Assembly (NCBI RefSeq): GCF_900113005.1 | Contig: NZ_FONW01000019.1 | Coordinates: 1 to 60,752 of the forward strand | Reading direction: 5' to 3' | DNA: 60,752 bases | From: Sunxiuqinia elliptica | GTDB taxonomy: Bacteria; Bacteroidota; Bacteroidia; Bacteroidales; Prolixibacteraceae | Shown: in pieces, positions 21,191 to 37,236 of the stretch | Position numbering within the stretch: the stretch's first letter is position 1 | Layout of the letters: each line of letters opens with the position of its first letter | Position numbers and translations under genes: made by a program | The notes under the pieces: model-generated | Told to the model about the DNA's origin: nothing | Database searches by the model: none | Seen by the model: only the letters and a program-made list of their open reading frames with translations

Positions 21191-21988
21191 TTAGTTCTTT
21201 TTTAAATAAGCATCCGGTGCATCCCGTTCGCCATCTTTCATATCTCCCATTGGGAAAAATGGGAACATATTTTCTTCCATCCATTTATTGGCATCAACCG
21301 GACTCAAACGCCAGCCTGAATTACAGGTTGAAACCACCTCAACAAATGAAGTTCCTTTCTTATCCAATGCATTTTGGAAAGCCTTTTTAATAGCCTTGCG
21401 GCATTTACGCGCCGTAGCTGGAGTGTGTGCAGACTGGCGGGTTACGTATGCAGTTCCAGGCAGTTGAGAAATCAACTCAGTTATTTTTAATGGGTAACCA
21501 TTGCGATCCAAATCCCGTCCGCAAGGCGTAGTGGCAGTGACCTGCCCTAGCAAAGTCGTTGGAGCCATTTGTCCTCCGGTCATTCCGTAAATCGCATTGT
21601 TGATAAAAATAACCACAATGTTTTCCCCACGGTTACAAGCATGCATGATCTCGGCTGTACCGATTGATGCTAAATCGCCATCGCCCTGGTAAGTGAAAAC
21701 CACTTTATCTTCGTTTACCCGTGCTATACCGGTAGCTACAGCTGGAGCCCGCCCGTGAGCAGCTTCTTGCCAATCAATATCGATATAATTGTAGGCAAAA
21801 ACCGAACAACCTACAGGAGAAACACCAATGGTTTTTTCCTGAATATCCAGCTCTTCAATGACTTCGGCAACCAAACGATGAACGACCCCATGAGTACAAC
21901 CTGGACAGTAGTGCATCGTATTGTCTGTCAATAATTTTGGTTTTTCGTAAACCAAATTTTCGGGTTTGATAATATCTTTAACGTCCAT
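21191..21988 (-). CDS. 2-oxoacid:ferredoxin oxidoreductase beta subunit (TPP-binding)
   Basis: A 265-residue TPP-binding subunit. The TPP/Mg motif is GDGDLASIGTAEIMHACNRG ending in IFINN, and the N-terminal CPGCTHGVVH supplies Cys residues of the beta-subunit type. The ATG at 21988 (MDVKDIIKPENL) is chosen: it starts 4 nt after the alpha stop, whereas the longer reading would need a TTG inside alpha. The enzyme oxidatively decarboxylates a 2-oxoacid to acyl-CoA and reduces ferredoxin. Confidence 0.94.
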   Translation of the reverse strand: MDVKDIIKPENLVYEKPKLLTDNTMHYCPGCTHGVVHRLVAEVIEELDIQEKTIGVSPVGCSVFAYNYIDIDWQEAAHGRAPAVATGIARVNEDKVVFTYQGDGDLASIGTAEIMHACNRGENIVVIFINNAIYGMTGGQMAPTTLLGQVTATTPCGRDLDRNGYPLKITELISQLPGTAYVTRQSAHTPATARKCRKAIKKAFQNALDKKGTSFVEVVSTCNSGWRLSPVDANKWMEENMFPFFPMGDMKDGERDAPDAYLKKN

Positions 21989-21992
21989 CTTT

Positions 21993-23087
21993 TTAAGCTT
22001 CAATTAGTTTTTGTTCCAATGCTTCAACAACTTCACCCGGTGTAGGGATAATTCCCCCCATGCGGCCAAAGTACTCAACAGGTACCGAACTATTACCACA
22101 TCCAGCGGCCAACTTCACGTCTTCCACCATTTGTCCGGCATTCATTTCAACAGTCAAAAAGCCTTTTACCTTTTTAGCTAATTCAGCAATTGGCTTTTTC
22201 GGGAACGGATACAAGGTAATTGGACGCAACAGCCCAACTTTCAATCCTTTTGCTCGAGCGATATCAACCGATTTTTGGCAAATACGGGCAGATGATCCAA
22301 AAGCAACCAAAATGTACTCGGCATCCTCGCAATCAATCATTTCGTAACGTACTTCTTCCTCTTCCATCTGACGATACTTTTCCTGGAAACGCAAGTTGTT
22401 AGCTTCCATCTTGTCTGAATCCATTTCCAAAGAAGTAATGATGTTGTAATCGCGATCGGCCTTTTTACCATTGGTTGCCCAGCTACCGCACTTAGCATCC
22501 AACTCTTCGGCCGTCATGCGAGGTTTATAATCGCTCAATTCAACTTTTTCCATCATCTGACCAATGGCTCCATCCGTCAAAATCATGGCTGGATTACGAT
22601 ATTTAAAGGCCAGTTCAAAACCTAACTCCACAAAATCATTCATCTCCTGAACCGAAGCCGGAGCCAGTACAATTAATTTATAGTCACCATGACCACCTCC
22701 TTTGGTGGTTTGAAAGTAGTCGGCCTGCGATGGTTGAATTGTTCCTAAACCAGGGCCTCCACGCTGTACATTGACAATTAAACAAGGTAATTCTGCTCCG
22801 GCAATGTACGAAATGCCTTCAGCCATTAAGCTGATTCCGGGGCTGGATGAAGATGTCATCACTTTTTTACCACTACCTGCAGCTCCATAAACCATATTGA
22901 TTGAGGCAACTTCACTTTCAGCCTGAAGCACCACCATGCCAGTTTCGTCCCAGGGTTCGCGGACCATTAACGTTTCCATCACCTCAGATTGTGGGGTGAT
23001 TGGGTAACCGAAGTAACCATCGCATCCACAACGAATTGCGGCTTCTGCAATAACTTCATTACCTTTCATTAATCTTAATTCTCCCAT
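21993..23087 (-). CDS. 2-oxoacid:ferredoxin oxidoreductase alpha subunit (VorB/KorA-like)
   Basis: A 364-residue alpha subunit. It has the pyrimidine-binding domain start GNEVIAEAAIRCGCDGYFGY PITPQSEVMETL-type segment, TSSSSPGISLMAEGISY, and a C-terminal domain II with PVEYFGRMGGIIPTPGEV. The VorB-type annotation (3-methyl-2-oxobutanoate) is common for this four-gene order, but 2-oxoglutarate oxidoreductases share these motifs. An aminotransferase gene and aryl-acid CoA ligases nearby fit amino-acid fermentation through 2-oxoacids. Confidence 0.92.
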   Translation of the reverse strand: MGELRLMKGNEVIAEAAIRCGCDGYFGYPITPQSEVMETLMVREPWDETGMVVLQAESEVASINMVYGAAGSGKKVMTSSSSPGISLMAEGISYIAGAELPCLIVNVQRGGPGLGTIQPSQADYFQTTKGGGHGDYKLIVLAPASVQEMNDFVELGFELAFKYRNPAMILTDGAIGQMMEKVELSDYKPRMTAEELDAKCGSWATNGKKADRDYNIITSLEMDSDKMEANNLRFQEKYRQMEEEEVRYEMIDCEDAEYILVAFGSSARICQKSVDIARAKGLKVGLLRPITLYPFPKKPIAELAKKVKGFLTVEMNAGQMVEDVKLAAGCGNSSVPVEYFGRMGGIIPTPGEVVEALEQKLIEA

Positions 23088-23115: not shown

Positions 23116-23340
23116 TTATAACTTAACGCGGTATACGGTAATGCACGTATCCGGACAAACCACTGCACAGTTTGAACATCCGATACACGCCTCAGGGTTT
23201 TCCATAAAGGAATAATGGTACCCCCGGCTATTTACCTGTTTGTTTTGTCCTAAGACCTGCTGAGGACAAGCAACAACACAAAGGCCGCAACCTTTGCATT
23301 CTTCAGTGTCAACAACAACTGCACCTACTACTTTTGCCAT
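23116..23340 (-). CDS. 2x[4Fe-4S] ferredoxin subunit of the 2-oxoacid oxidoreductase
   Basis: A 74-residue ferredoxin (delta subunit). Two clusters are bound by [12 protein letters not shown] (about residues 15-26) and [13 protein letters not shown] (about 52-64). It is the first gene of the operon and probably carries electrons from the TPP site to soluble ferredoxin, which the hydABC hydrogenase in this window could then reoxidise (inference). Confidence 0.95.
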
Positions 23341-23414: not shown

Positions 23415-23422
23415 CAAATCTA
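23415..23422 (-). promoter_or_regulatory. -7 promoter box of the 2-oxoacid oxidoreductase operon
   Basis: On the minus strand this reads TAGATTTG, a perfect match to the Bacteroidota -7 consensus TAnnTTTG. No good TTTG lies at the normal -33 distance; instead a Crp/Fnr-like palindrome is centred 29.5 nt upstream of the box, near -41.5 of the expected start site. This fits an activator-dependent promoter. Confidence 0.55.
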
Positions 23423-23443: not shown

Positions 23444-23459
23444 TGCAACAAAAGTTGCA
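23444..23459. promoter_or_regulatory. Crp/Fnr-like palindrome upstream of the ferredoxin/2-oxoacid oxidoreductase operon
   Basis: TGCAAC-AAAA-GTTGCA, a perfect 6+6 inverted repeat with a 4-nt spacer. It lies between the Crp/Fnr-type regulator gene and the oxidoreductase operon. It has the same form as the palindrome in front of nrfH (35069-35084). Confidence 0.6.
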
Positions 23460-23495
23460 TATTCGGTTCAACCTTTTTTTAAATGCCTTACGGCT

Positions 23496-24071
23496 CTATA
23501 TTTTATTTAATATCCGCGTAAAAATGTTCCGATGAATTCCCAGGTAGGAGGCAATATGCTGCCGTTGTACCCGAGAAACCAAATCGCGATGTTCTTTTAC
23601 AAATTGCTTTACCCGTTGCGAAGCGGTCAACGATTGCAGCATATGCACTCGTTTCAAGGCATTCACATAACTTTCTTCCGCCATTCGTCGCACCAAACTT
23701 TGTAGTTCACTGCTATTCTCCAAGAGCTTTTCGAATTCGGGTTTACTTATAAAAATAATCTCTGAGTCTTCATAGGCCCGGATTGCCTCTGTTGAATTTT
23801 CGCCTGAAAGAAAGGAATCATGGCTGCTTAACACCGCATTGTCCGGCGTGTAGAAAAAGCGCGAAATCCATTCCTGCCCACTCTCAGCAACATAAGTGGC
23901 ATACATCAACCCTTTCAACAGGATTCCCAACTTTTGATTTGGTTCATCATAGGCCAAAAAGGTTTCACCTTTCTTCAATGAAACCCGCTCCTGCTTTGAG
24001 AAATATTCCATCAACAAAGCAAGCGTTGAATTATCGGTTTCATGCATTGAATAGGCACTCATTTGGCTCAT
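23496..24071 (-). CDS. Crp/Fnr-family transcriptional regulator
   Basis: A 191-residue regulator: cyclic-nucleotide-binding-like sensor (about 15-130; GILLKGLMYATYVAESGQEW, AYEDSEIIFISKPEFEKLL) and a C-terminal helix-turn-helix (RQHIASYLGIHRNIFTRILNKI). No N-terminal cysteine cluster is present, so it is not an Fnr-type Fe-S sensor; the ligand is unknown. It starts 11 nt after the aminotransferase stop and is probably co-transcribed with it. Candidate targets are the palindromes at 23444 and 35069, though another regulator outside the window could bind them. Confidence 0.9.
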   Translation of the reverse strand: MSQMSAYSMHETDNSTLALLMEYFSKQERVSLKKGETFLAYDEPNQKLGILLKGLMYATYVAESGQEWISRFFYTPDNAVLSSHDSFLSGENSTEAIRAYEDSEIIFISKPEFEKLLENSSELQSLVRRMAEESYVNALKRVHMLQSLTASQRVKQFVKEHRDLVSRVQRQHIASYLGIHRNIFTRILNKI

Positions 24072-24082
24072 TTATTATCGAA

Positions 24083-25399
24083 TTAATCAACAGGGAAATC
24101 TTTGGCAAATTGTTTTAGCCGTGTTTCCAAATCGTCAAACTGGTTACGATTGACATGTGAGACACACGCTCGTAGTCCTTCTTTTTCACTTCCGGTATTT
24201 TTCAGAGCAATTGCGCTAATGCCGTAATACAGCAAGTTGCCCAAGAGCTCCTCTCCTGTCATCTTCGGATAACCAATTGTAAAGTAGAAGCCGTCTCCAA
24301 TCAGTTCATCCCCGTCTTTTTCGTATACAATGTAGAAGCCATATTTTTGAAATAGCTCCTTCATGATGCGGGCTTTATCACCATATTCCTTCACATCCTC
24401 CACAAAATTAAATTGGCCATCGCTGGCTGCTTTAAACATGGCTGCCAAAGCAAACTGTGCCGAATGGCTCGTTCCTGAAGATAAGGCATACAACACCCTC
24501 AGCGTAATGGTATTTCCAAAAGTGTTGCTCTGAAAACGTACCTTCAGGTTTTCGTATTCCCGCTGGTACAAAGCATCAGAAATTATCATAATACCGCAGC
24601 GTTGCCCGGCATATGAAAAGATTTTTGAACTGGAGATAAAAAGAATATAATTGTCGGTGTAACGAGCTACTGTGGATTGATAAGGAGGTTTCCCCGGTGT
24701 ATATAAGTCTTTCCGGAAATCCATAGCAAAGTAGGCCAGGTCCTCCATCACGATCACATCATACTTATCGGCCAATTCACCAATCGTTTGCAGTTCTTCT
24801 TCAGTAAAACAAATCCAGCTGGGATTATTCGGATTGGAATAAATCAGTGAGTTGATGTTTCCCTTCGCCAATATACTTTCCAGTTTTTCGCGAAGTTTTG
24901 CCCCCCGATAATTAAAGACATCAAAGGTTTCGTATTTGTGTCCCATAACCAGCATTTGTTGCTTTTGAACCGGAAATCCCGGGTCAATAAACAAAGCGGT
25001 ATCTTTTTCCGGATGGACGTTGCTGGCAACCAATAAAGCTGCGTAGGTTCCTTGCATAGAACCTACCGTCGGAATACATCCGGCCGGCTCGACATCAACA
25101 TTCATAAATGATTTTACAAAACGGGCGGCTTCGTTTTTCAGCGGTTTAATTCCATCCATCATCGGGTATTTTGAAGCAACCCCCGACTCCAGCGCTTCAA
25201 TCTCGGCCTTCGTTCCTACGGCAGCAGGAGGTAAGCCCGGAACACCCATTTCCATTCGAACAAATTTATCGGAACCACCTTCTTCAATCAGATTTACTAA
25301 AGCTACAATTTCGCGTATCGAAGCCTGGCCAATATGGTCAATCTTCAGTTTAGCGATATTTTGGTCAACAAGTTGTTGATCGATTGGTGTTTTTTTCAT
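24083..25399 (-). CDS. PLP-dependent class I/II aminotransferase
   Basis: A 438-residue fold-type I aminotransferase. Motifs are YSNPNNPSW, VMEDLAYFAMDF, and the PLP lysine Lys259 in SSSKIFSYAGQRCG; LRACVSHVNR near the C-terminus holds the substrate carboxylate Arg. It probably interconverts an amino acid and its 2-oxoacid. Position between prephenate dehydratase/flavodoxin and the 2-oxoacid oxidoreductase fits either aromatic or branched-chain amino acids. It heads a two-gene unit with the Crp/Fnr gene. Confidence 0.9.
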   Translation of the reverse strand: MKKTPIDQQLVDQNIAKLKIDHIGQASIREIVALVNLIEEGGSDKFVRMEMGVPGLPPAAVGTKAEIEALESGVASKYPMMDGIKPLKNEAARFVKSFMNVDVEPAGCIPTVGSMQGTYAALLVASNVHPEKDTALFIDPGFPVQKQQMLVMGHKYETFDVFNYRGAKLREKLESILAKGNINSLIYSNPNNPSWICFTEEELQTIGELADKYDVIVMEDLAYFAMDFRKDLYTPGKPPYQSTVARYTDNYILFISSSKIFSYAGQRCGIMIISDALYQREYENLKVRFQSNTFGNTITLRVLYALSSGTSHSAQFALAAMFKAASDGQFNFVEDVKEYGDKARIMKELFQKYGFYIVYEKDGDELIGDGFYFTIGYPKMTGEELLGNLLYYGISAIALKNTGSEKEGLRACVSHVNRNQFDDLETRLKQFAKDFPVD

Positions 25400-25812
25400 T
25401 TTATGTAAATTGTTAATCTTTTATGGCACATCATCAGCCTAAGCTTTGCTTGCTTCCAATTTTGGAAATGCTCTTATTCATCATCGGCAGCTATTGAATT
25501 CCACACAGCTCATTTCATCTGTCTTCTCCTGATTCAAGAGCTCTTTCCTGCCAGCAAAATTACCATAAACGACACGTTTTCAACAAAAAACACGTTCTAA
25601 AGATTCCGTCCGACAAATAGAATCTATCACTAAAAGAAGCAAAGTATTCCCTATTTACCAAGGAACTTTGAGGTATTTCTGAACAGGTTTTACAAATCGA
25701 AAATTCGAGCTGACAGAAAGAATAAAATTGAAATTATTTTGAAATGATTCAGCTGAAATTAAAAGAAATTCAGGCCATTTTACTGACCTGAATTATATCA
25801 TGTTTTTTTGAT
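25400..25812. other. 413-nt intergenic region without a recognisable gene
   Basis: It separates flavodoxin from the aminotransferase. The only clear structure is the flavodoxin terminator at its right end. The promoter of the aminotransferase-regulator unit must lie here, but no good TTTG/TAnnTTTG pair was found. Confidence 0.6.
25767..25794 (-). terminator. Terminator after flavodoxin
   Basis: Stem AATTCAGG / CCTGAATT with a 12-nt loop; on the minus strand it is followed by TTTCTTTTAATTT. It ends the pheA-flavodoxin transcript. Confidence 0.7.
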
Positions 25813-26337
25813 CTAGAATCCGAAGTCTTTCTGAATGGACTTCAACCAGTTGGCAATGCGTTCATCGGTTTGTTCCGGTTCAAAATCTTCATCAATTGGC
25901 AGCCCAATAAAACGCCCGTCTATCAATGCTTCTGAATCCTCAAATTCGTAGCCTTCCGGATCGACCGATCCAACAATATTGGCGTCTTTAGTCTTCAGTT
26001 CTTTGGCCAAACGACCAATTGCATTAACAAAATGATCAGGATAAGTCACGTGATCTCCCAACCCATAAATAGCAACTACCTTTCCATCATAATTGGCTTT
26101 GCTAACTTCTGGAAAGAATTTGCTCCAATCGGTATTTGAATAGTCAGAATCCCAAGTTTCTTTTCCAACGGTTGAAATTCCAAAAATGATTTGGTCATAT
26201 TGCTCCAGATCAGCAGCCGAAGCATCATTTACTGAAACCAGTTCTACTTTTTCTTCGCCAATTACTGCTGCAATTTTCTCAGCAACGCGATGTACTGACC
26301 CTTTTTCAGGTCCAAAAAATAATCCTATTTTACTCAT
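25813..26337 (-). CDS. Flavodoxin
   Basis: A 174-residue long-chain-type flavodoxin (FMN electron carrier). The start at 26337 (MSKIGLFFGPEKGS) is chosen because the upstream in-frame extension overlaps pheA and is not flavodoxin-like. The phosphate-binding loop reads FGPEKGSVHRVA rather than the usual G-S-T-T-G-N-T form. IYGLGDHVTYPDHFVNAIG and WDSDYSNTDW are the FMN-ring loops. It lies just downstream of pheA and may replace ferredoxin under iron limitation (inference). Confidence 0.92.
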   Translation of the reverse strand: MSKIGLFFGPEKGSVHRVAEKIAAVIGEEKVELVSVNDASAADLEQYDQIIFGISTVGKETWDSDYSNTDWSKFFPEVSKANYDGKVVAIYGLGDHVTYPDHFVNAIGRLAKELKTKDANIVGSVDPEGYEFEDSEALIDGRFIGLPIDEDFEPEQTDERIANWLKSIQKDFGF

Positions 26338-26353
26338 AACTATCTGGTTTTTT

Positions 26354-27193
26354 TTACTGATTTTGAATTTCGAGTTCGCCCCGAACATATTCACCTAAAA
26401 TAGATAAACTTGATACAGTTTTCAAAATTAAATGAATGGCATGTTCATAATTTTCCATGCTGTCCCATTCAACATCCACATGAATCGTATATTCATTTGG
26501 TTTTCCAAGAATTGGAACTGACAGAATCCGGTTCAGGTTAATTTGATGCTCCGAAAAGATATTCAACACTTTAGCCAGCGCACCATAATAATGACCTACT
26601 TCAAAACAAATTGATGCTTTATTACTATCCTTGGAGTGGTTGGCATGTTTGGAAAGAATCCAGAAGCGGGTGTAGTTCTTCTTATTACTTTCAATTCCTT
26701 TGTCAATCACATTTAAGCCATAAAGCTCAGCCGTACGCAGGTTGCCAATTGCGGCAGCATCGGTTAGTTTTTGCTGCACCAACAATTTTCCTGAAGCCGC
26801 TGTATCCTGGTTTTCCTGGATCGTAGCATTGGGATAGTACTTTTCGATGTACTCTGTACACTGCCGAATAGCGATCGGATGTGAATAAATTGTTTTAACG
26901 TCTTCCGGTTTAGCTCCGGGCAACATCATCAGGTTCATTTGAATATGAATATATATTTCACCAATCACTCGTAAGTGAAAATCCCGAATAAGCGAATAGT
27001 TTTGGATAATGCTTCCGGCAATCGAATTTTCAATAGCCATAACCGCAATATCAACTTGATCAGAGTCAATCAGTTCACAAACACGCTGAAATGACTTGCA
27101 CTCCACCACTTCAATCTCTTCATCACCAAAATAATTTCGTGCAGCGTCTTCGTGAAAGGAACCGGCGATTCCCTGAATTGCAATCTTCTTCAT
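26354..27193 (-). CDS. pheA: Prephenate dehydratase
   Basis: A 279-residue monofunctional enzyme converting prephenate to phenylpyruvate in phenylalanine synthesis. The catalytic domain has GIAGSFHEDAARNYFG, AVMAIENSIAGSI and the Thr-Arg-Phe motif in KKNYTRFWIL. The C-terminal ACT domain has GALAKVLNIFSEHQINL, but the phenylalanine-binding ESRP motif is replaced by LSVP, so feedback control may differ. No chorismate mutase domain is fused. It is followed by flavodoxin. Confidence 0.95.
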   Translation of the reverse strand: MKKIAIQGIAGSFHEDAARNYFGDEEIEVVECKSFQRVCELIDSDQVDIAVMAIENSIAGSIIQNYSLIRDFHLRVIGEIYIHIQMNLMMLPGAKPEDVKTIYSHPIAIRQCTEYIEKYYPNATIQENQDTAASGKLLVQQKLTDAAAIGNLRTAELYGLNVIDKGIESNKKNYTRFWILSKHANHSKDSNKASICFEVGHYYGALAKVLNIFSEHQINLNRILSVPILGKPNEYTIHVDVEWDSMENYEHAIHLILKTVSSLSILGEYVRGELEIQNQ

Positions 27194-27219
27194 AGTTTTC
27201 GTTGTGTATTATAAAAAAA

Positions 27220-27240
27220 TCCCGGGTACTAAGCCCGGGA
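27220..27240 (-). terminator. Terminator of the ligase-ACT-small protein operon
   Basis: Stem TCCCGGG / CCCGGGA with a 7-nt loop. On the minus strand a run of seven T follows, so it ends transcripts coming from the 47-residue gene and its upstream operon, before pheA. Confidence 0.85.
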
Positions 27241-27419
27241 CAATTTACGCAAAAACACGTTTATATCATTATCTAAACAGATAAGAGGTTCAAAAAATTA
27301 ACAATAAAAGCATGTCTTTTCATGCTTCTGCAAGCTGTCTGGAAAAGATTCCTTTAAGTTCAACTTGGCATTCCCAGGTGACTTCAAATCCCTTCTCCCA
27401 GCAACTAACTGGCTCAGTA

Positions 27420-27563
27420 CTACTTTGCTGTTTCCTCTGTAGGTGTTTGCTGAAACGCATCCCGAACTCCCTTTGAAAAGTCTTTCCAGTTAAATGCGAT
27501 GGCGACAAGCAACACAATAATGAAACTGATTAAAAACTTTTCACTTGTATTCAATTTTCGCAT
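27420..27563 (-). CDS. 47-residue single-pass membrane protein
   Basis: A complete small gene: ATG at 27563, TAG at 27420-27422. The product starts MRKLNTSEKF, has one hydrophobic helix (about residues 10-25, FLISFIIVLLVAIAFN) and ends in a polar tail DAFQQTPTEETAK. It sits after the ACT-domain gene of the ligase/symporter operon and before that operon's terminator. The function is unknown. Its placement mirrors the 59-residue accessory gene after the other ACT gene. A longer reading frame on the same strand (27320-27517) overlaps it but has no protein-like features. Confidence 0.6.
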   Translation of the reverse strand: MRKLNTSEKFLISFIIVLLVAIAFNWKDFSKGVRDAFQQTPTEETAK

Positions 27564-27720
27564 GTTGTAAGTTTTAAGTCTTCATAACTCACTGAGTGAC
27601 TACAAACAAGCAAATCTCTGAACATCAGAAATCGTATCCTATTTGCTCCCAGTATTATTCATCAGCCAACAAATGCTGATATTTTTGCGCTCAACTTATG
27701 ACACGCTAAGCAAAACCAAG

Positions 27721-28149
27721 TCAGATTTTATACAAATCACTGGCTTTAACCAGCTCCAGCTGATGTTCTTGTAAAACGCGAATACATTTTTCGATGTTTG
27801 CCGGCTTTAAAACAACATTGGCTGATTTATTGTCCATTGAGAAAGCGTAAAGATACTCAATAAACACTTCCTCGGAAGACAAAATATTTAAAGCTTTTGC
27901 CAGAGCTCCCGGCACATTAGGACTGCTTAGGCAAACGACATCTGTTAGCTTAACGGAGAAATCAGCAGCTTTCAGCACTTGGTAAGCCTTGACCGGGTCG
28001 GAAACAATCAAGCGTAAAATGCCAAACTCAGAGGTATCGGCAACACTAAAAGCAGACATATTGATTCCGGCTTCGCCCAACAATTGAGAAACTTCATTCA
28101 GGCGTCCACTTTTATTTTCAAGAAAAACAGATAATTGTTTAATAATCAT
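27721..28149 (-). CDS. Tandem ACT-domain protein
   Basis: A 142-residue protein of two ACT domains (first: IIKQLSVFLENKSGRLNEVS; second: VVCLSSPNVPGALAKALNIL). Such free-standing double-ACT proteins usually sit beside phenylacetate-CoA ligase genes and are thought to bind an amino acid or related ligand. It starts 9 nt after the ligase stop. A paralogue lies at 31622-32071 beside the second ligase. Confidence 0.92.
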   Translation of the reverse strand: MIIKQLSVFLENKSGRLNEVSQLLGEAGINMSAFSVADTSEFGILRLIVSDPVKAYQVLKAADFSVKLTDVVCLSSPNVPGALAKALNILSSEEVFIEYLYAFSMDNKSANVVLKPANIEKCIRVLQEHQLELVKASDLYKI

Positions 28150-28158
28150 AGTAAGCTC

Positions 28159-29457
28159 CTAAATTTTACGGTTATCAATAACACGGCGGGCTTTTCCTGC
28201 CGTACGTTCAATCGTTTTGGGTTCAACCAGTTTCACATTCACCGAGATGCCCAAAGTACTCTGAATATTGTGTGTAATTTTCTTACGCAAAACCTCCAAC
28301 TGTTTTACTTCATCCGAGAAGAATTGTTCCTGCACCTCAACCATCAATTTCAAGGTATCCAGGTTTCCCTCGCGCTCAACAATAAGCAGGTAGTGTGGCT
28401 CGGTTTCACTCATTTCGAGCAACACGCTTTCAATTTGCGATGGGAATACATTCACCCCTCGAATAATCAACATATCATCACTTCGTCCCTTGCATTTTTC
28501 CATTCGAACTAAAGTCCTTCCACAGGCACATTTCTCATAGTTCAGCCGTGTTAGGTCACGCGTACGATAACGTATAATTGGAATTCCTTCCTTGGTAACT
28601 GTTGTAAACACCAACTCACCAATTTCACCTTCAGGCAATGGCTGCAGGGTTTCCGGATCAATAATTTCAGGAATAAAATGGTCTTCGTTGACATGCATGC
28701 CTTGCTGATGGCTACACTCACAAGAAACACCCGGTCCAATCACTTCACTCAGGCCATAAATATCGATGGCTTTCAAGCCCAACTTGGCTTCTATCTCCCG
28801 GCGCATTTCCTCGGTCCACGGTTCAGCGCCAAAAATACCAACCCGCAAATTAAGGTTTTCTTTTTCAATTCCAGCTTCATCCATCGCCTCTGCTAAAAAT
28901 AACGCATAGGAAGGCGTACAAGCAATTACCGATGTTCCAAAATCCTGCATCAATTGCAACTGCTTTTGTGTATTTCCTCCTGAAATGGGAATCACCGATG
29001 CTCCCAGGTTCTCACAACCATAATGCATTCCCAACCCTCCGGTAAACAAGCCATAACCATAGGCAATCTGAACCATGTCATTGCGATGCAAACCAGCCAT
29101 ACACAAGGTTCTGGTTACCACTTCGGCCCAAGTATTCAAATCTTTTCGGGTATACCCCACGACGGTTGGCTTTCCTGTTGTCCCTGACGATGCATGCACA
29201 CGCACAATTTCGCTCATGGGAACCGTAAACATGCCAAAAGGGTAATTATCCCGCAAATCCTGCTTGGTGGTAAATGGTAATTTTTCCAAGTCATCCACTG
29301 AGCGAATATCTCCCGGAACTAAGCCGGCATCCTGCATTTTTTTCCGATAACTCGGAACATTGTGATAAATGCGCTGCACGGTATCGACTAAACGTTCCGA
29401 CTGGATTTCCCGCATCTCATCACGGCTTGCACATTCTATTTTTTCATTCCAAATCAT
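28159..29457 (-). CDS. Phenylacetate-CoA ligase family protein (copy 1)
   Basis: A 432-residue adenylate-forming ligase that makes an aryl-CoA from an aryl acid, ATP and CoA. Motifs: P-loop-like [30 protein letters not shown], and [20 protein letters not shown]; the C-terminal region has [20 protein letters not shown]. In anaerobes that make 2-oxoacid oxidoreductases these ligases recover or activate aryl acids such as phenylacetate or indoleacetate. It is 16 nt downstream of the symporter stop and 9 nt upstream of the ACT gene. Confidence 0.93.
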
Positions 29458-29473
29458 AACATTAGCTTTCTGG

Positions 29474-31066
29474 TTAATGAATGCCTTTCAGGCACACATC
29501 CAAATGTTTTGAATCAATTTTTGGTGTTAATAGGCTTACCCCAACCAAGACTAAAATTGAAATTGGCAGGGCAATCAGTAAGGGGTCAATAATCATCCAA
29601 GGAAATTCATTGACCAATATTTCTTTTCCAAATAACGCTTGACAAATTCCAAGAGGAACCGCTTCTTTTTGATGCACAAAAGCCAGTAAAAAAGCACTGA
29701 CCAACATCCCGGCAAGCATACTCCAAACGACTCCGGTACGGGTTGTACGCCGCCAGTACAATCCGCCAAAATAAGCGGGTAAAAACGCAGCCGCACAAAT
29801 CCCAAAAAAGATAGCTGTTCCGCGAGCAACAATCCCGATGGGCAAATGGTAACCAATAATGATACTAACCACAATAGCGACAACAATTCCCACTCGGGCA
29901 ATCAACATGCTATTCATCTGTGTGTCAGGAAACAGATTTTCAAATAAGTCGCGCCCAATCGAAGTTCCCATTGTGTGGAATTGAGAGCTTAATGTTGACA
30001 TTCCGGCAGAAAGCAAGGCCAACATAAACAGGTAAACAAACCACTCGGGCATGGCTGCATTCAGGTATTCAGGAATGACTAAATCCACATTTCCCTGGGC
30101 CACCTCAATCGCTAACTTTCCAGTTTCCTGGTAAAAATAGAGGTTGGATAAGGCTCCAACAGTGTAAATAAAACCGGTAACCACAAAAATAAAGATCCCT
30201 CCAATCAGCACTGCGCGGTTCAACTCCCGGTTACTTTTAACAGTCATAAAACGAACAACGAGCTGAGGTTGGGCCAACACGCCAATTCCTACACCAAAAA
30301 TAATATTGGTCGTAAGCACCCACCACCAAGCCGAACCCAACCTAGGGAAGGCGGTCCATCCCTGATGTCCTTTCCCTTGGAGCTCAACCGGAACGAGCTT
30401 GGCCATATTTGTCAAGGCCTCGTGTGCTCCTGAAACGCCTCCTAGCTTTAAATAGGTCATAAACAACAAGAAGAAAAGACTCAAAAACATGACTCCTCCT
30501 TGTAAGGCATCGGTGTACATCACTCCTTTCAGGCCTCCGGCTATCACATAGGCTGCAATAATCAGGGAGAAAAAAGTGAGTGCCATCCCAAAATCAATCT
30601 CGAAAATACTTTCAATAAAGCGGGCGCCGCCAATCAATACAACTGCCGCATACAAAGGCATGGCGATAAAAATAATTGCCCCACTAAGCATCTGAATTCC
30701 TTTGGACTGAAAGCGACTTCCCAAAAATTCCGGGAAGGTATGAGCATCCAGGTTGTGTCCCATTTTTCGGGTACGCCGGCCAAAAAACACAAAAGCTATC
30801 AACACCCCAATCAAAATGTTTAACACCGTTAGCCAGATCAATCCCATGCCGTAAACCCCGGCAATCCCTCCAAATCCGATAATGGCAGAAGTTGAAATAA
30901 ACGTTGCGCCATAGGAAATTGCCATCACAAAAGGGTGAATCTCACGACCTCCCAATAAGTAATCTTTAGCCGTCTTGGTCTTTTTAAAGCCCACATAACC
31001 CAAATAAGCAATCACTAGTAGATAAGTGATGACCACAAGTCCAAGTGTATAGGTGTTCATATTCAA
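29474..31066 (-). CDS. Sodium:solute symporter (SSS/SLC5 family)
   Basis: A 530-residue membrane transporter with about 13 hydrophobic helices. The N-terminus includes [18 protein letters not shown] and [19 protein letters not shown], typical of SSS carriers, and the sodium-site helix reads [17 protein letters not shown]. The gene order with aryl-CoA ligase suggests import of an aryl or short-chain carboxylate. The 59-residue accessory gene expected just upstream is separated from it by a 376-nt region containing a dispersed repeat. Confidence 0.93.
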
Positions 31067-31442
31067 AGTTGTTTCAATTCAAGTTTTTCTATTCAAGCCA
31101 CAATCGTTAATCATTCATCAACTCCCCTTGTCCTATCGGACGGATTTTCATTTTTGTCTTGACACAAAAACGAAACAAAAAAGTCAAGGCTCACGATCGT
31201 TTTTAATAGAAAACTACGGATCGTTCGCCCCGGCGCAATCCAACTCCTCCCTTCAGTCGTTAAACAGGATTGCTTCCCAGTGCCACCGCAACTCACTCCC
31301 TTGTTTTCCAAATCAAAACCCTCGTAGGCCCGCCCATAACGCAAACCCTCGCACGAAAAACAAATTCTTTATTCAAAATCTCGGCTTGGGAGATAATCAT
31401 TTATCAAGCTTTCATGCCCTGTGCTCTCTGCTCTACCGCTTG
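31067..31442. other. Intergenic region carrying a dispersed repeat
   Basis: 376 nt between the symporter and its small accessory gene. No gene is seen. Most of it is a copy of repeat family B (31151-31334). Confidence 0.7.
31151..31334. repeat. Dispersed repeat family B, copy 1
   Basis: It shares ordered blocks, in the same orientation, with 56881-57064: TCAAGGCT, ACGAT, AAAACTACGG, CCAACTCCTCCC, AAACAGG, TCCCTTGTTTTC and TCAAAACCCTCGTAGGCC. It begins with a short hairpin TTTTTGTCttgaCACAAAAA and an A-rich run. The intervening bases have diverged. Confidence 0.8.
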
Positions 31443-31622
31443 CTACATCTTTTCTTTTAGCAGTTCGTCCCGGTCTTCCCAAGCAAGGTCTTTTTCCATT
31501 TCCGAAGCGTCAGTTTCCTGCCCCCGGTTCCAGTTTCTAACACCATACCAAACGCAAGCAATTAAGCTCAATACTGCCAAAGCATAGCCCCAGTAAATTG
31601 AAGGATCATCAATTCCGAACAT
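31443..31622 (-). CDS. Symporter small accessory protein (59 residues)
   Basis: ATG at 31622 overlaps the ACT-gene stop as TGATG; TAG at 31443-31445. The product starts MFGIDDPSIYWGYALAVLS, has one membrane helix (about residues 8-28) and a charged tail (EMEKDLAWEDRDELLKEKM). The MFGIDDP start and size match the small accessory proteins that precede SSS symporters in many anaerobes and archaea. Its stop-start coupling with ACT copy 2 argues that it is translated. The symporter it should serve is 376 nt downstream across a repeat. Confidence 0.82.
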   Translation of the reverse strand: MFGIDDPSIYWGYALAVLSLIACVWYGVRNWNRGQETDASEMEKDLAWEDRDELLKEKM

Positions 31623-32071
31623 CAGGAGATTTTTTTAGATGTTACACCATAAACCAACTCATCGGCCAGCGGATACAAATCCACAGCAGTAACCTGCTCC
31701 AGCGCTAGCTCATAATCCTCAACATCGACAATCAGCAGCGCTCGCTTATTATCTTCCAAAACCCGCCCATAGGCATTCAGGAAATTGACGCCTGCCCTAG
31801 CCAGTTGAACGAGTGTTTCATCCAGTCCTCCCGGATGATCATCCATGCCAAAAGCGAGCACTTGTCGCAAGGTTGCCGAGAAACCATTATCCTGCAATGC
31901 CTCACAAGCCTTTTGCGGTTGATTAACCAGCAAATTAAAAATTCCCCACCCACTAACGGTATGGGTTAAAGTCATCGACCGGATATTGATGTGATTTTCC
32001 CGAAGCACTCGGGTAACACGTTCAAAATGCCCGGTTTTATTCTCTAAAAAGATGGAAACCTGGTAAGCCAT
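31622..32071 (-). CDS. Tandem ACT-domain protein (copy 2)
   Basis: A 149-residue double-ACT protein (YQVSIFLENKTGHFERVTRV; FGMDDHPGGLDETLVQLARA). It lies 10 nt after ligase copy 2 and overlaps the start of the accessory gene by 1 nt. It is a paralogue of 27721-28149, clearly diverged. Confidence 0.92.
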   Translation of the reverse strand: MAYQVSIFLENKTGHFERVTRVLRENHINIRSMTLTHTVSGWGIFNLLVNQPQKACEALQDNGFSATLRQVLAFGMDDHPGGLDETLVQLARAGVNFLNAYGRVLEDNKRALLIVDVEDYELALEQVTAVDLYPLADELVYGVTSKKIS

Positions 32072-32081
32072 GTCGTCTGAT

Positions 32082-33395
32082 TTATAGTTTTACGGTATTT
32101 AAAGTTCGGTTATCTTTCACCCGAACAGCTTTTCCTTCGGACTTGGGAATGGATCCCGGTTCAACCAACCTCACAATGGGTTTAGCCAATACTTCATCAC
32201 GAATTTGCTGGGTTATTTTTCGGGTCAGGCGATCCAGACGGGTAATGTCGCCATTGAACCAGTCCTTCTTCACTTCTACATCTACAATCATTTCGTCTGC
32301 ACCATTTCGCTGTTCAAGAGTAATGAGGTAGTCTGCCCCCACTTCTGGAATTTTAAGCAGCACCCCTTCAATTTGCATCGGAAAGACATTGCATCCTTTT
32401 ATAATAAACATGTCGTCGCTGCGGCCAGTAATCCGGTCAAGTCGGGCATGCGTCCGCCCACAGGCACAAGTTCCTGGAATGATACGTGTTAAATCGCGGG
32501 TTCGATAGCGAATCAAAGGCATGGCCTGACGGTCGAGGGTGGTCAGCACCAACTCGCCAACTTCACCATCAGGAACAGGCTCCAGCGTGTCGGGATTCAG
32601 AATTTCAACCAGGTAAGAATCTTCCCAAATATGTAAGCCAGCCTGCTCCGTGCATTCAAAGGCAACTCCCGGCCCATTCATCTCAGACAAGCCAAATGAG
32701 TTGTAAGCTTTTACACCAAACATCTCCTCTATTCGCTGGCGCTGCTCTTCGGTGTGTGGTTCTGCTCCAATTACGAATAAACGCAGGTCAGTATCTTTTC
32801 TCGGATCCAGTCCTTCGGCCTGAAAAATTTCGTACAAACGGCCCAAGTAACTCGGGATCGCATGGACAACAGTAGTGCCATAGTCCTGCATCAGTTTGAT
32901 TTGACGCAAGCTATTACCAGCTCCCGCAGGAATGCTCAAGCACCCCAGGCGCTCAATCCCATACTGAAAGCCCAAGCCTCCAGTAAAAAGCCCATAGCCA
33001 CATATATTTTGGAAAACATCAGTATCGCGAACTCCTGCACAATACAGCGATCGTGCCATTAGGTTAGCCCAACTGGCAATGTCATGTCGGTTATGAAAGA
33101 TGACGGTTGGATTACCCGTTGTTCCGCTGGAACTATGCAGGCGAATCAGTTCTTGTTTAGGTGCCCCCAAAAAGCCATACGGAAAATTTTCACGTAAATG
33201 CTGCTTGGTGGTATACGGTAACCGTCGGATATCGTCAGGTTGTTTGATCAGCTCAGGACGAATACCTTTTTGTTGAAAAACTTGCTTATAAAAAGGCGAC
33301 CGCGCTGCATAAGTTAGCGTTTCTTTCAGTCGTTCAGTTTGCAGTTTTTTCAGTTCATCATGAGCTAAGGTTTCAAGTTGTTTTTCCCAGTACAT
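32082..33395 (-). CDS. Phenylacetate-CoA ligase family protein (copy 2)
   Basis: A 437-residue paralogue of copy 1 with the same motifs: [51 protein letters not shown] and GRSDDMFIIKGCNVFPMQIE. The two ligases differ along their whole length, so they are old paralogues that probably prefer different aryl acids. It lies 36 nt downstream of a porin gene, and the porin-ligase-ACT-accessory order looks like one operon. Confidence 0.93.
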   Translation of the reverse strand: MYWEKQLETLAHDELKKLQTERLKETLTYAARSPFYKQVFQQKGIRPELIKQPDDIRRLPYTTKQHLRENFPYGFLGAPKQELIRLHSSSGTTGNPTVIFHNRHDIASWANLMARSLYCAGVRDTDVFQNICGYGLFTGGLGFQYGIERLGCLSIPAGAGNSLRQIKLMQDYGTTVVHAIPSYLGRLYEIFQAEGLDPRKDTDLRLFVIGAEPHTEEQRQRIEEMFGVKAYNSFGLSEMNGPGVAFECTEQAGLHIWEDSYLVEILNPDTLEPVPDGEVGELVLTTLDRQAMPLIRYRTRDLTRIIPGTCACGRTHARLDRITGRSDDMFIIKGCNVFPMQIEGVLLKIPEVGADYLITLEQRNGADEMIVDVEVKKDWFNGDITRLDRLTRKITQQIRDEVLAKPIVRLVEPGSIPKSEGKAVRVKDNRTLNTVKL

Positions 33396-33431
33396 TTAGG
33401 TTTTTAGTTTCATTGGTTAAAAAGCTTCCGG

Positions 33432-34703
33432 TCAGAAGAGGTACATCATCATAACACAGAAGCGGTTATTCATCGTTTGGTGCTTATCAGCATATAATCC
33501 ATCAGAAAAATCAAATGCTCCAACACCATAATTAGCGGTTGTTAGTTCATACTCGGCAACTACGCGTAGTTTCGATACATTTAGGGCAATATGTGGCGAC
33601 ACCCTTGCCAGGTTTTGGACATTGGGCAGCAAACCTGTCACAATGCCTTTACCAGAGCCATCATCATAAAGCGGATCGGTTGTACCCAAGTTTCCTCCAT
33701 AGCCAAACAAGGCTCCAACCTGCCACTTTTTGCCATACACCACATTAAATAAGGTGGTATAATTATTATAGTTTGTATAAGTTTCTTCTCCGGTAGCTTC
33801 ATCGCGTGTAGCAACTCCATAACCACCCAAAAAAGTCAGGTGGGTCATGTTTTGCCCATAATATCCTTTGGCAACCACACTTAACTTATCTTGCTTATGC
33901 TTGAAGTAAGCCATGAAACCAGAGCTTGTTAGAAATTCATCGGCTTTAAACTTGCCCTCGGTACCAGTAACCGTCATTCGGGGTTTTATGCGTTTTATTT
34001 GTGCTCCAACTCCAGCCGTAATTCCATTGTGATGATATTCTGTTGACCAAACCAACTCAGGCATAACGCCATTACGTTGCGCTTGGTTAGGCGTACTAAA
34101 ATTACTAGCTTCAAAACATTTTGACGTGTACTGATTTTCATAAACCGCAGCACCTGAGACAGTCCAATTGCCTGAAATCATATCGTAACGCACCATCGGA
34201 GAGCGGTTAAAAGCCTGGAATGGAGCTCCTGTATTTAAGCCTGCAACCGTAGGAAAAGCACCACCACCCCAGAACGGGTGCCAAGTTTGTCCAACTAACA
34301 AGCGCGAGCTTTCCCAATCAAGCACCATATTTGCATGACGAATCCGAAAAAGTGTTGGCTCCGTTTTAACAATTCCACCAAAATCGAACTCAATGTTCCC
34401 GCTACTCTTTGCTCCCAAAATTTCAGGACCAGAAATCCGCAGACCAATACGAGACGCTAAAGCCGAAAGGTTTGAACTAGCTTGTTCATTAATATCCTCT
34501 CCATTAGCATCCTTCCCAACATAAAGCGGAACAAGATAAAAAGTTTCATTTGCAGCATCCAAGCCTTTATACGAATCGATAAAAAACTCATTTCTCACAA
34601 ATCCATACCAATCCAGCTTAACATCCTTTACTTCTTGCGCATTGGCATACATGGTTAAACCGATCAAACAGAGCAGTCCCCAAATTCTCTTCATCATCTT
34701 CAA
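33432..34703 (-). CDS. Outer-membrane porin-like beta-barrel protein
   Basis: A 423-residue protein with signal peptide (GLTMYANAQ) and many alternating amphipathic strands (SRIGLRISGPEILGAKSSGN, FRIRHANMVLDWESSRLLVG) ending with the outer-membrane-type aromatic terminus MMYLF. It resembles DcaP-type porins that pass small aromatic or dicarboxylate anions, which fits the downstream aryl-CoA ligases. ATGs at 34703 and 34697 are both possible starts. Confidence 0.78.
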   Translation of the reverse strand: MKMMKRIWGLLCLIGLTMYANAQEVKDVKLDWYGFVRNEFFIDSYKGLDAANETFYLVPLYVGKDANGEDINEQASSNLSALASRIGLRISGPEILGAKSSGNIEFDFGGIVKTEPTLFRIRHANMVLDWESSRLLVGQTWHPFWGGGAFPTVAGLNTGAPFQAFNRSPMVRYDMISGNWTVSGAAVYENQYTSKCFEASNFSTPNQAQRNGVMPELVWSTEYHHNGITAGVGAQIKRIKPRMTVTGTEGKFKADEFLTSSGFMAYFKHKQDKLSVVAKGYYGQNMTHLTFLGGYGVATRDEATGEETYTNYNNYTTLFNVVYGKKWQVGALFGYGGNLGTTDPLYDDGSGKGIVTGLLPNVQNLARVSPHIALNVSKLRVVAEYELTTANYGVGAFDFSDGLYADKHQTMNNRFCVMMMYLF

Positions 34704-34831
34704 TTTAAAAGCAGTGTTTTTGGTTTTTCTTTACAAAATGTAGACAAACAACATCCAGAAAAACAGGAAAAGCAATCCCAATCGGAAAGAATCGTGAAAT
34801 TCCGTTAGTCTCATTTTGGTTAATTGGAAGT

Positions 34832-34839
34832 CAAAAATA
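34832..34839 (-). promoter_or_regulatory. -7 box of the porin-ligase operon
   Basis: On the minus strand this reads TATTTTTG, a perfect TAnnTTTG. The predicted transcript has a leader of roughly 120 nt. No clear -33 TTTG is present. Confidence 0.35.
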
Positions 34840-35068
34840 AAACAATTCGTTCCCCCTCCAATCCTACGGCTGAAGATAATTCATTCAAAAACAGCCTTCT
34901 GATTTACATTTCGCTAATCAAACACTCCGACAAACAAGCAATTGTAAATAATTAGTGGCTATAAATTACAATTTGAAAATTCTGTAATTTATAATGATTT
35001 TGAATAATAACTCCTTAAAAATCATTTTCTGAGCATATTTCAATTCAACAAAAAAAAACTCAAGACTT

Positions 35069-35084
35069 TGTAACATTGGTTACA
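35069..35084. promoter_or_regulatory. Crp/Fnr-like palindrome upstream of nrfHA
   Basis: TGTAAC-ATTG-GTTACA, a perfect 6+6 inverted repeat with a 4-nt spacer. Its centre is 29.5 nt upstream of the -7-like box TAGTTTTA at 35106, the same spacing as at the 2-oxoacid oxidoreductase promoter. It also overlaps a TTTG (35067-35070). Confidence 0.6.
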
Positions 35085-35090
35085 TTTTCG

Positions 35091-35113
35091 TAACTTTTAG
35101 TGGACTAGTTTTA
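35091..35113 (+). promoter_or_regulatory. Candidate -7 boxes of the nrfHA promoter
   Basis: Two near-consensus boxes occur: TAACTTTT at 35091-35098, 20 nt after TTTG at 35067-35070, and TAGTTTTA at 35106-35113, placed for activation from the palindrome. Either would give a short leader before the nrfH ATG at 35137. Confidence 0.4.
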
Positions 35114-35136: not shown

Positions 35137-35709
35137 ATGATCAAAAAACTCCATCCACCAAAAATCTGGAGGATCCCAGTTATTCTTGCTCTGGGTGTCT
35201 TTTCCGGACTTTTCATGTTGTCGGTCTACCTGTCGAAAGCGCATTCGTACCTCTCCGATGATCCAAAAACCTGCGTAAACTGCCACATCATGGCACCGCA
35301 ATACGCAACCTGGAACCACAGTTCACATCGGGAAGTAACCAATTGCAACGACTGTCATGTTCCTCACAACAACGTTTTTAACAAGTACTATTTTAAGGCA
35401 AAAGACGGATTACGACATGCCACGATGTTTACGCTTCGTAAAGAACCTCAGGTTATTTTCATTCATGAAGCCGGAGCTGAAGTGGTCCATCAGAATTGTG
35501 TACGATGCCACGAAAACCAACTGATGGATGCTCAACAATCAGTGTGCATTGCCAACTACAAAGAAAACCGGACTGAGCGTAAATGCTGGGACTGCCACCG
35601 GGAAGTGCCCCACGGACGTGTCAACAGCTTATCCAGTACGCCCTATGCCCGGGTTCCTCTTCCGGAAAGCCCCGTACCCGAATGGATTAAACAACTCGAT
35701 AACAACTAA
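35137..35709 (+). CDS. nrfH: Cytochrome c nitrite reductase small subunit NrfH
   Basis: A 190-residue NapC/NirT-family tetrahaem quinol dehydrogenase. One N-terminal membrane anchor (about 12-32, IPVILALGVFSGLFMLSVYL) is followed by four CxxCH sites at residues 46-50, 70-74, 121-125 and 150-154. The first is CVNCHIM, with the Met that ligates haem 1 in NrfH. It passes electrons from menaquinol to NrfA, encoded 12 nt downstream. Confidence 0.96.
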   Translation: MIKKLHPPKIWRIPVILALGVFSGLFMLSVYLSKAHSYLSDDPKTCVNCHIMAPQYATWNHSSHREVTNCNDCHVPHNNVFNKYYFKAKDGLRHATMFTLRKEPQVIFIHEAGAEVVHQNCVRCHENQLMDAQQSVCIANYKENRTERKCWDCHREVPHGRVNSLSSTPYARVPLPESPVPEWIKQLDNN

Positions 35710-35721
35710 AAAAGCAATACA

Positions 35722-37236
35722 ATGAAACCATTAAAAACAACAATTGAAAAAAGACCGATTATTGGTTGGCTTCTTTTCCTGGCCACAATCTTAGTCGTTT
35801 TCCTATTGGGCCTTTTAGCCTCCTCAATTATGGAACGTCGCGCTGAAGCAAGCTTCGTCAATGTTCCCAAAGTTAAGCTCTCAGAATTTGAACCCCGTAA
35901 CGAAGTTTGGGGAGAAAACTTCCCTCGCGAGTACCAATCGTATTATCAAACAGCTGATACCTCTTTCCAAAGCAAATACAATGGTAATACCATGATCGAC
36001 ATGCTTGAGGTTGACCCAAGATTGGTGGTTCTATGGGCTGGTTATGGTTTTTCGAAAGACTACAACCAAGGACGAGGACACTACTATGCTGTTGAAGATA
36101 TTCATAAAACCTTGCGAACAGGAGCCCCTCAGGGTGACGACGATGGGCCAATGCCTTCAACATGCTGGACCTGCAAAAGCCCTGATGTGCCGCGCGTGAT
36201 GCAAGAAGAAGGTGTTGCTGAATTTTACAAAGGCAAATGGTCGCGCCTGGGGGCTGAAGTTGTTAACCCAATTGGCTGTGCCGACTGCCACGATCCGGAA
36301 ACAATGAACCTGCGGATTACCCGTCCGGCTCTGGTTGAAGCATTTGAAAAAATGGGAAAAGATGTCAATAAATCTTCTCACCAGGAAATGCGTAGCTTGG
36401 TGTGTGCACAATGCCACGTTGAGTATTACTTCGACAAAAAGAACGTAGAAGGAGCTCAATACCTTACTTTTCCATGGGAAAAAGGCTTAACCGTGGAAGC
36501 TGCTGAAGAATACTATGATGACATCAATTTTAGTGATTGGACACATTCCCTGAGTAAAGCCCCCATGTTGAAAGCCCAACATCCGGGATATGAGATTTAC
36601 AAACAAGGAATTCATGCCGAACGTGGTGTATCATGCGCCGACTGTCACATGCCTTATAAATCTGAAGGTGGACAAAAATTTACCGATCACCATATTCAGT
36701 CTCCATTGAATAATGTTGCCAACTCTTGCCAGGTATGCCACCGTGAAGAAACTGCCAACCTGTTGAAAAATGTATTTGACCGTCAGGACAAAATCATTGA
36801 AAACCGCGACAAACTGGAAGAACTCTTGGTACGCGCCCACCTCGAAGCACAAAAAGCTTGGGAATTGGGGGCGACAGAGCCTCAAATGCAAGACATCTTA
36901 AAAGGAATTCGCCACGCACAATGGCGTTGGGATTATGCTGCAGCAAGCCACGGAGGTTCATTCCATGCGCCACTGGAAACCAGCCGGATCATTTCAACCG
37001 GGCTGACCATTGCTCAGGAGACCCGAATCAAACTGGCTCGTTTGCTGGCTGAAAAAGGATTCAATGAAGAATTACCTTACCCAGATATTTCAACCAAAGC
37101 TAAAGCCCAGGAATTTATCGGTCTGGACATGGATAAACTCAACGAGGAGAAAGCTGAATTCCTTGAAACAGTTGTCCCAGAGTGGCTCAATAAAGCAAAA
37201 GAACGTGAAGCTGGCTGGGAAGTAAAACGCAATTAG
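35722..37236 (+). CDS. nrfA: Ammonia-forming cytochrome c nitrite reductase NrfA
   Basis: A 504-residue pentahaem enzyme reducing nitrite to ammonium with six electrons. An uncleaved N-terminal hydrophobic segment anchors or exports it. The active-site haem motif is CWTCK at 148-152 (lysine-ligated), and CxxCH sites are at 186, 228, 305 and 336. The CAQCHVEYYF block contains the conserved active-site Tyr and calcium-site residues. All five haem sites are intact and the length is standard. With NrfH it forms the membrane-bound ammonification complex. Confidence 0.97.
   Translation: MKPLKTTIEKRPIIGWLLFLATILVVFLLGLLASSIMERRAEASFVNVPKVKLSEFEPRNEVWGENFPREYQSYYQTADTSFQSKYNGNTMIDMLEVDPRLVVLWAGYGFSKDYNQGRGHYYAVEDIHKTLRTGAPQGDDDGPMPSTCWTCKSPDVPRVMQEEGVAEFYKGKWSRLGAEVVNPIGCADCHDPETMNLRITRPALVEAFEKMGKDVNKSSHQEMRSLVCAQCHVEYYFDKKNVEGAQYLTFPWEKGLTVEAAEEYYDDINFSDWTHSLSKAPMLKAQHPGYEIYKQGIHAERGVSCADCHMPYKSEGGQKFTDHHIQSPLNNVANSCQVCHREETANLLKNVFDRQDKIIENRDKLEELLVRAHLEAQKAWELGATEPQMQDILKGIRHAQWRWDYAAASHGGSFHAPLETSRIISTGLTIAQETRIKLARLLAEKGFNEELPYPDISTKAKAQEFIGLDMDKLNEEKAEFLETVVPEWLNKAKEREAGWEVKRN

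Follow-up and report, generated by a model that had tools for sequence, protein, structure and literature searches.

Do two nearly identical palindromes, each placed at the same distance before a promoter element, serve one regulator or two? The question is raised by a stretch of 60,752 nucleotides from Sunxiuqinia elliptica (family Prolixibacteraceae, in the NCBI order Marinilabiliales; contig NZ_FONW01000019.1, C16 in our numbering of the 5.09-Mb genome), referred to here as the window. Upstream of a 2-oxoacid oxidoreductase (vor) operon lies TGCAACAAAAGTTGCA (23444..23459, minus strand), an exact match to TGCAAC-N4-GTTGCA, hereafter C-type, and the predicted site of a Crp/Fnr-family regulator encoded next to it. 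Upstream of the nitrite reductase genes nrfHA lies TGTAACATTGGTTACA (35069..35084, plus strand), a perfect TGTAAC-N4-GTTACA, hereafter T-type, which is a box of HcpR2 type. Each palindrome is followed after exactly 21 nt by a -7 box, TAGATTTG at 23415..23422 on the minus strand (read 23422-23415) for vor and TAGTTTTA at 35106..35113 on the plus strand for nrfHA, with the dyad centre 29.5 nt from the box at both promoters. An earlier note, made from this sequence, had reported the palindromes, the boxes and their common spacing, merged the palindromes into the consensus TGYAAC-N4-GTTRCA, and proposed that one Crp/Fnr regulator, possibly the protein encoded at 23496-24071, joins 2-oxoacid oxidation to nitrite ammonification. 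The observation is confirmed at every coordinate, but a joining regulator is not supported: the variable base of the consensus splits by target gene, and the T-type box does not track the presence of the protein of 23496-24071 (hereafter the window regulator). We put the probability at roughly 85% that the two palindromes serve two different Crp/Fnr-family regulators with the same promoter geometry, HcpR for nrfHA and the window regulator for vor.

The pair of exact palindromes is well above chance in the window, where 0.03 occurrences of the consensus are expected and none of 100 shuffles gave two. With two mismatches allowed there is no palindrome excess in the window (6 found, 7.8 expected). 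In the whole genome the exact consensus occurs in three places and its reversed pattern in two, so the palindrome alone is not enriched genome-wide. The third place, on contig C13, was judged a chance occurrence, inside a coding sequence that resembles carbamoyl-phosphate synthase (named from sequence). Combined with a TAnnTTTR box 21 nt downstream, however, the palindrome is enriched among relatives: a sample of 149 genomes from the order gives 22 matches in 18 genomes, versus 0 for the reversed control, and all of them read TGTAAC...GTTACA save the window's own vor site. The Bacteroidetes promoter consensus consists of TAnnTTTG at -7 and TTTG at -33 (PMC7366714). With the box placed near -7, simple arithmetic gives a predicted distance of about 40-41 nt from the dyad centre to the expected start. 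These results support the reading of both palindromes as candidate operators of Crp/Fnr type, each at the same fixed distance from a -7 box of the Bacteroidetes kind.

The C-type and T-type variants were then treated as separate patterns and searched across the same 120 genomes of the family. GCAAC-N4-GTTGC with the -7 box was found in 49 genomes, exactly once in each, and its reversed control gave 0 matches; GTAAC-N4-GTTAC with the box gave 68 matches in 46 genomes (control, 4). We read the loci of 30 of the 49 C-type matches and of 51 T-type matches, the latter made up of 30 of the 68 from the family and 21 of the 22 from the order (L110, the window's vor site, was left out). A relative of the ferredoxin gene that begins the vor operon follows within 400 nt in 28 of the 30 C-type loci, and the remaining two stop at a contig edge. 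Downstream of the T-type promoter stands hcp, or the Fe-S gene of the hcp operon, in 29 loci (15 family, 14 order), nrfH in six (4 family, 2 order, the window included), and some other gene in 16 (11 family, 5 order).

Pattern searches of this kind fix the variable base, and the comparison was therefore redone from homology with that base left free. Among 27 vor loci with the regulator, 25 show the dyad, all with C/G at the variable base; the upstream DNA of the other two (L230 and L236) is too short to be read. TAnnTTTG stands at the 21-nt gap in 22 of these 25. The regions upstream of nrfH in 80 nrfA loci contain a perfect GNAAC-N4-GTTNC dyad in 18, with T/A in 18 of 18. The single consensus TGYAAC-N4-GTTRCA thus splits by target gene, and one shared motif is not supported, because the Y/R position of that consensus is precisely what separates the two motifs. 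In an alignment of 23 vor promoters by their dyad, the columns of the -7 box are identical in 20-23 of 23 sequences (11 in the free third column), the spacer columns in 8-18. The arms served as the search key for this alignment, and only the box and spacer columns, not the invariant arms, count as evidence. As a separate observation on the vor promoters (L213-L242 and L312), all 23 aligned sites have T as the third base of the 4-nt gap between the arms, and the sites of L312, G254 and G257 have A there, a bias rather than a rule.

The C-type box goes with a single gene. The window regulator (23496..24071, minus strand) is a Crp/Fnr-family protein of 191 residues and the predicted dedicated regulator of vor. 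Its sensor domain matches Pfam cNMP_binding (PF00027; 32.2 bits, cut-off 27.5), and its putative recognition helix reads GIHRNIFTR, of which GIHRNI is invariant in 30 of 30 aligned sequences, its own included. A structure model (pLDDT 80.6) places helices between residues 150 and 190 and matches CRP in Foldseek at E 2e-11, which points to a C-terminal helix-turn-helix; no Pfam helix-turn-helix model matched at E 0.001, which counts against that assignment. The protein has no cysteine, hence not the N-terminal cysteine cluster of FNR, and is therefore not an FNR-type Fe-S sensor. Nor does it reach the NCBIfam CRP equivalog (22.9 bits, cut-off 266). As clues to an effector, a sequence search of structures at E up to 0.001 returned only three generic Crp/Fnr structures, and Foldseek ranks CRP, NtcA and FNR structures about equally.

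Orthologs of this regulator occur in 52 of the 120 family genomes, with a clear gap at the cut used to define the class (E below 1e-55; next matches at 1e-18). The C-type box is present in 49 of these 52 genomes and in none of the 68 others (Fisher 1.7e-30), and the family sample has no genome with the box but without the regulator. Even in the three exceptions (G161, G157 and G239) GCAAC-N4-GTTGC precedes the ferredoxin gene, and there the spacing is shifted by one or the box reads TTATTTTG. Within genus g150, regulator and box are present in the same 10 of 20 genomes. The two lie within 1.2 kb of each other in 40 of the 49 genomes; in the remaining nine, all from one genus, the box is kept though the regulator gene is 185 kb to 4.7 Mb away in contig coordinates (seven genomes) or on another contig (two). 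VorB itself is found in 104 family genomes, 53 of which have no regulator, and the C-type dyad is absent from all 53 vor loci of these genomes, read at one locus per genome (G261 has two VorB genes, one of which was read, and L227, L273 and L280 offer less than 170 nt upstream). Among 295 genomes sampled from the class, only the window's own contains the regulator (E cut 1e-30). Four contain the C-type pattern, its own and three others, a background of about 1%, and neither the regulator nor the ferredoxin nor the aminotransferase has a relative in the three other loci. The candidate named by the earlier note is therefore retained for one half of its proposed role: it is very probable, as judged from these patterns of co-occurrence, that the protein of 23496-24071 regulates the oxidoreductase operon next to it, and the T-type data given below speak against a role at nrfHA. 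No paper describing this regulator or GCAAC-N4-GTTGC was found in the open-licence literature; in papers on P. gingivalis the terms searched led to no operator sequence, and PMC8510549 does not mention Bacteroidetes, Bacteroidota or nrfA. The vor regulator is thus a local regulator without a description in the open-licence literature searched.

At the other promoter, nrfH (35137..35709, plus strand; TIGR03153, 163 bits, cut-off 134.2) encodes the small subunit of cytochrome c nitrite reductase and nrfA (35722..37236, plus strand; NF008339, 684.5 bits, cut-off 595) the ammonia-forming cytochrome c nitrite reductase. Within the set of 80 nrfA loci, the nearest NrfA is that of Sunxiuqinia indica (90%). 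The nrfHA box is a perfect match to the HcpR2 motif GTAACnnnnGTTAC, a motif tied to a proline at position 181 (PMC1274295). The sole hcp gene of the genome lies at C10:976441-978063 (minus strand), and a Crp/Fnr gene divergent from its fes-hcp operon (C10:979302-979973, plus strand; L011:1405-2079) encodes the organism's own HcpR. Between hcpR and the Fe-S gene, and reading towards the Fe-S gene and hcp, is the promoter TGTAACAAATGATACA, N21, TATATTTG, whose box has one mismatch to the HcpR2 motif and the same spacing as nrfHA. The recognition helix of this HcpR, GVTRPALAR, has by eye a proline at the position of CRP residue 181, and Arg-Pro is found in this helix in 20 of 20 HcpR proteins. 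Among the 16 Crp/Fnr proteins of the genome, also compared by eye, Arg-Pro occurs only in HcpR (TRPALAR) and Arg-Asn only in the window regulator (HRNIFTR). Of 20 HcpR loci, the organism's own included, 17 keep the dyad with TAnnTTTG at the same gap, and in one more the dyad is followed by a poorer box; two have no dyad within the 400 nt scanned, though G238 has one further out. The T-type box occurs in 45 of 104 family genomes with a detected HcpR versus 1 of 16 without (p 0.005), the one being a genome of 76% completeness. In Desulfuromonas and Geobacter, nrfHA is a predicted HcpR target (PMC1274295), and in B. thetaiotaomicron HcpR the modelled contacts are Pro187, Ser188 and Arg191 (PMC13370916). 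HcpR is the likely regulator of nrfHA.

Further T-type promoters were seen at genes other than hcp and nrfH. In seven family genomes (L183, L184, L185, L190, L193, L194 and L196) the box and -7 element precede a conserved membrane protein, PepSY-like by eye, with a frame of about 493 residues in six and 375 in L194. Other T-type boxes (L106, L112, L121, L187, L207 and L208) precede genes that by eye resemble a small cytochrome c, a radical-SAM protein, a 4Fe-4S membrane protein, cytochrome oxidase subunit II, a porin and YceI. These may belong to a wider HcpR regulon, or may in part be chance occurrences given the four control matches.

Could one Crp/Fnr protein, perhaps the window regulator, nonetheless act at both boxes and so link 2-oxoacid oxidation to nitrite ammonification? 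The two boxes differ by one base per half-site at identical spacing, and a protein could tolerate such a change. Against this, the variable base tracks the target gene without exception in the homology-chosen sets. The C-type box follows the regulator, whereas the T-type box does not, being found in 16 of 52 genomes with the regulator and in 30 of 68 without it (Fisher p 0.18). T-type boxes also stand at hcp and nrfH in genomes of the order outside the family, and the regulator is confined to the window's own genome in the class sample (no search for it was made in the order sample). We regard a single shared regulator as improbable. Control of both promoters by HcpR, with TGCAAC as a weaker site, is more doubtful still. 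The common geometry would suit it, as would the arginine that HcpR and the window regulator share, by eye, at the position of CRP Arg180; yet HcpR is present in most of the family and the C-type box appears only with the window regulator, and G185 and G224 have a C-type box with no HcpR found. The last alternative, that the palindrome at 23444-23459 is the terminator hairpin of the aminotransferase-regulator transcript and not an operator, draws on its position 37-52 nt past the regulator stop codon and its perfect 6-bp inverted repeat, but is rejected as the least probable of all, since the transcribed strand shows no T run after it, the -7 box is conserved at a fixed distance, and genomes with the regulator gene at another place still have the dyad ahead of the ferredoxin gene.

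Several results weigh against two separate assignments, to HcpR and to the window regulator, and limit how firmly they can be made. HcpR is nearly universal in the family (104 of 120 genomes), and its co-occurrence with the T-type box is therefore the weaker evidence. Beside its 68 real matches the T-type pattern had 4 in the control, and 62 of the 80 nrfH promoters read lack a perfect dyad, though some of these are near-perfect. In B. thetaiotaomicron, deletion of hcpR abolishes hcp expression and only modestly lowers that of nrfA (preprint, PMC13370916). On the vor side, an adjacent regulator gene and box (40 of 49 genomes) can be removed in one deletion, and the separated cases all come from one genus, so that there are fewer independent events than the Fisher value implies. 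Co-occurrence of box and regulator is strong for vor and weaker for HcpR. In place of the shared regulator we propose two parallel regulons, of which that of HcpR2 is of a known kind, with nrfHA as a likely member.

The vor operon gives a view of how its regulator may have come or gone. On the minus strand, a 4Fe-4S ferredoxin-like frame of 74 residues (23116..23340) is followed by the alpha subunit, of VorB type (21993..23087; NF005507, 544.6 bits, cut-off 399), the beta subunit (21191..22003; its best NCBIfam matches, none of which reaches cut-off, are to beta subunits of 2-oxoacid:ferredoxin oxidoreductases) and the gamma subunit (20627..21178; Pfam POR, 130.9 bits, cut-off 27.4). Directly upstream of the regulator gene, on the same strand, is a PLP-dependent aminotransferase (24083..25399), for which the 25 listed of 57 matches to NCBIfam aminotransferase models are all below cut-off. 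In 50 of the 53 vor loci without the regulator, 12-128 nt separate the ferredoxin gene from the end of a relative of this aminotransferase gene on the same strand, and the search for such a relative gave no match in the other three. In loci with the regulator the distance is 677-1032 nt (22 of 27 loci, those with both matches), and the regulator gene was found between the two genes in 24 of 27, with the box after it. Because the aminotransferase and ferredoxin genes are direct neighbours where there is no regulator, and stand well apart with the regulator between them where there is one, the regulator gene and its operator-promoter look like an optional cassette inserted in an aminotransferase-ferredoxin-vor operon. 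A replacement promoter in the loci without regulator was considered and rejected: the 260 nt upstream of the ferredoxin gene lack TAnnTTTG in 44 of 53, and in one of 53 contain it with a TTTG about 20 nt ahead. This is consistent with transcription of vor in such loci by read-through from the aminotransferase gene. We offer, as a tentative idea that we think rather unlikely, that the window regulator is a previously undescribed sensor, of branched-chain or other 2-oxoacids or of the ferredoxin pool's redox state, and forms part of a cassette repeatedly gained or lost in this one operon. If so, related species would differ in whether 2-oxoacid oxidation is coupled to its aminotransferase or uncoupled from it.

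The following mechanism is proposed. Both dyads sit, by position, at the place of the -33 element, and two Crp/Fnr regulators, most likely class II activators, would bind at dyads centred 29.5 nt upstream of a TAnnTTTR -7 box, the bound dimer about 40-41 nt before the start replacing a weak -33 contact. HcpR, encoded beside fes-hcp, would probably activate hcp and nrfHA under nitrosative stress. The window regulator would act at the vor box just downstream of its own gene, and its cassette, between the aminotransferase and ferredoxin-vor genes, would give the oxidoreductase its own regulated promoter. Compared by eye, the arginine at the CRP-180-like position in both regulators goes with the shared G of TGNAAC, and the proline (HcpR) or asparagine (window regulator) beside it goes with A, not G, two bases further in, following the rule in PMC1274295. 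We infer regulator binding, activation over repression, the transcription starts and the effectors; that the vor regulator responds to a 2-oxoacid or a related signal is a guess from context.

A weaker site in the window belongs to neither motif, since it has GAC instead of AAC. GAC-AAAA-GTC (centre 52995.5; site and box span window positions 52991-53033) stands upstream of the hydrogenase operon, 30.5 nt before TAAATTTA (53026-53033), just as the earlier note had it. A core TGAYAAAWGTC about 30 nt before a TAAWTTTA-like box was seen by eye in six of seven members of the genus (L313-L319), and a further Crp/Fnr protein may act there, at a third type of operator. The genome has 16 cNMP-binding matches, and four Crp/Fnr-type genes are found within about 7.5 kb (G000 contig C6:135664-143036; L016, L018, L012 and L015).

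An attractive link between pathways therefore gives way to two regulon assignments that can be tested. In Bacteroidota, two parallel Crp/Fnr circuits of identical promoter geometry may be kept apart by one operator base. For studying the entry of a regulator cassette into an operon and the divergence of Crp/Fnr specificity, the vor regulator is a clean system, with one regulator, one operator by the strict pattern, and natural presence or absence within a genus. From the assignment of nrfHA it is predicted that in relatives of Sunxiuqinia a sensor of nitrosative stress jointly controls nitrite ammonification and Hcp.

Each half of this arrangement can be set beside a known system. The nrfHA half resembles the HcpR2 regulon (PMC1274295) in the fit of its box to the motif, in the motif-linked proline of its HcpR and in the divergence of hcpR from fes-hcp. 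It differs in that nrfHA shares the box here, whereas in most Bacteroides species the HcpR2 regulon is hcp alone (PMC1274295). The vor half is like Crp/Fnr class II activation in the cNMP-binding domain and the C-terminal helix-turn-helix-like fold of the regulator model, and in an operator dyad of two 6-nt arms, 4 nt apart, centred about 40-41 nt before the expected start. Within the Crp/Fnr superfamily it is set apart by the operator GCAAC-N4-GTTGC, by the His-Arg-Asn of the recognition helix, and by the one target per genome that the strict pattern gives. NtcA is the 2-oxoglutarate-responsive Crp/Fnr protein of cyanobacteria, and its structures are among the best Foldseek matches of the window-regulator model (TM up to 0.80, for the overall fold only), but CRP and FNR chains are nearly as good (TM 0.66-0.78 among the best 50 matches) and identity is 18-20%. 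By analogy, a sensor of 2-oxoacids would suit an operon for a 2-oxoacid oxidoreductase.

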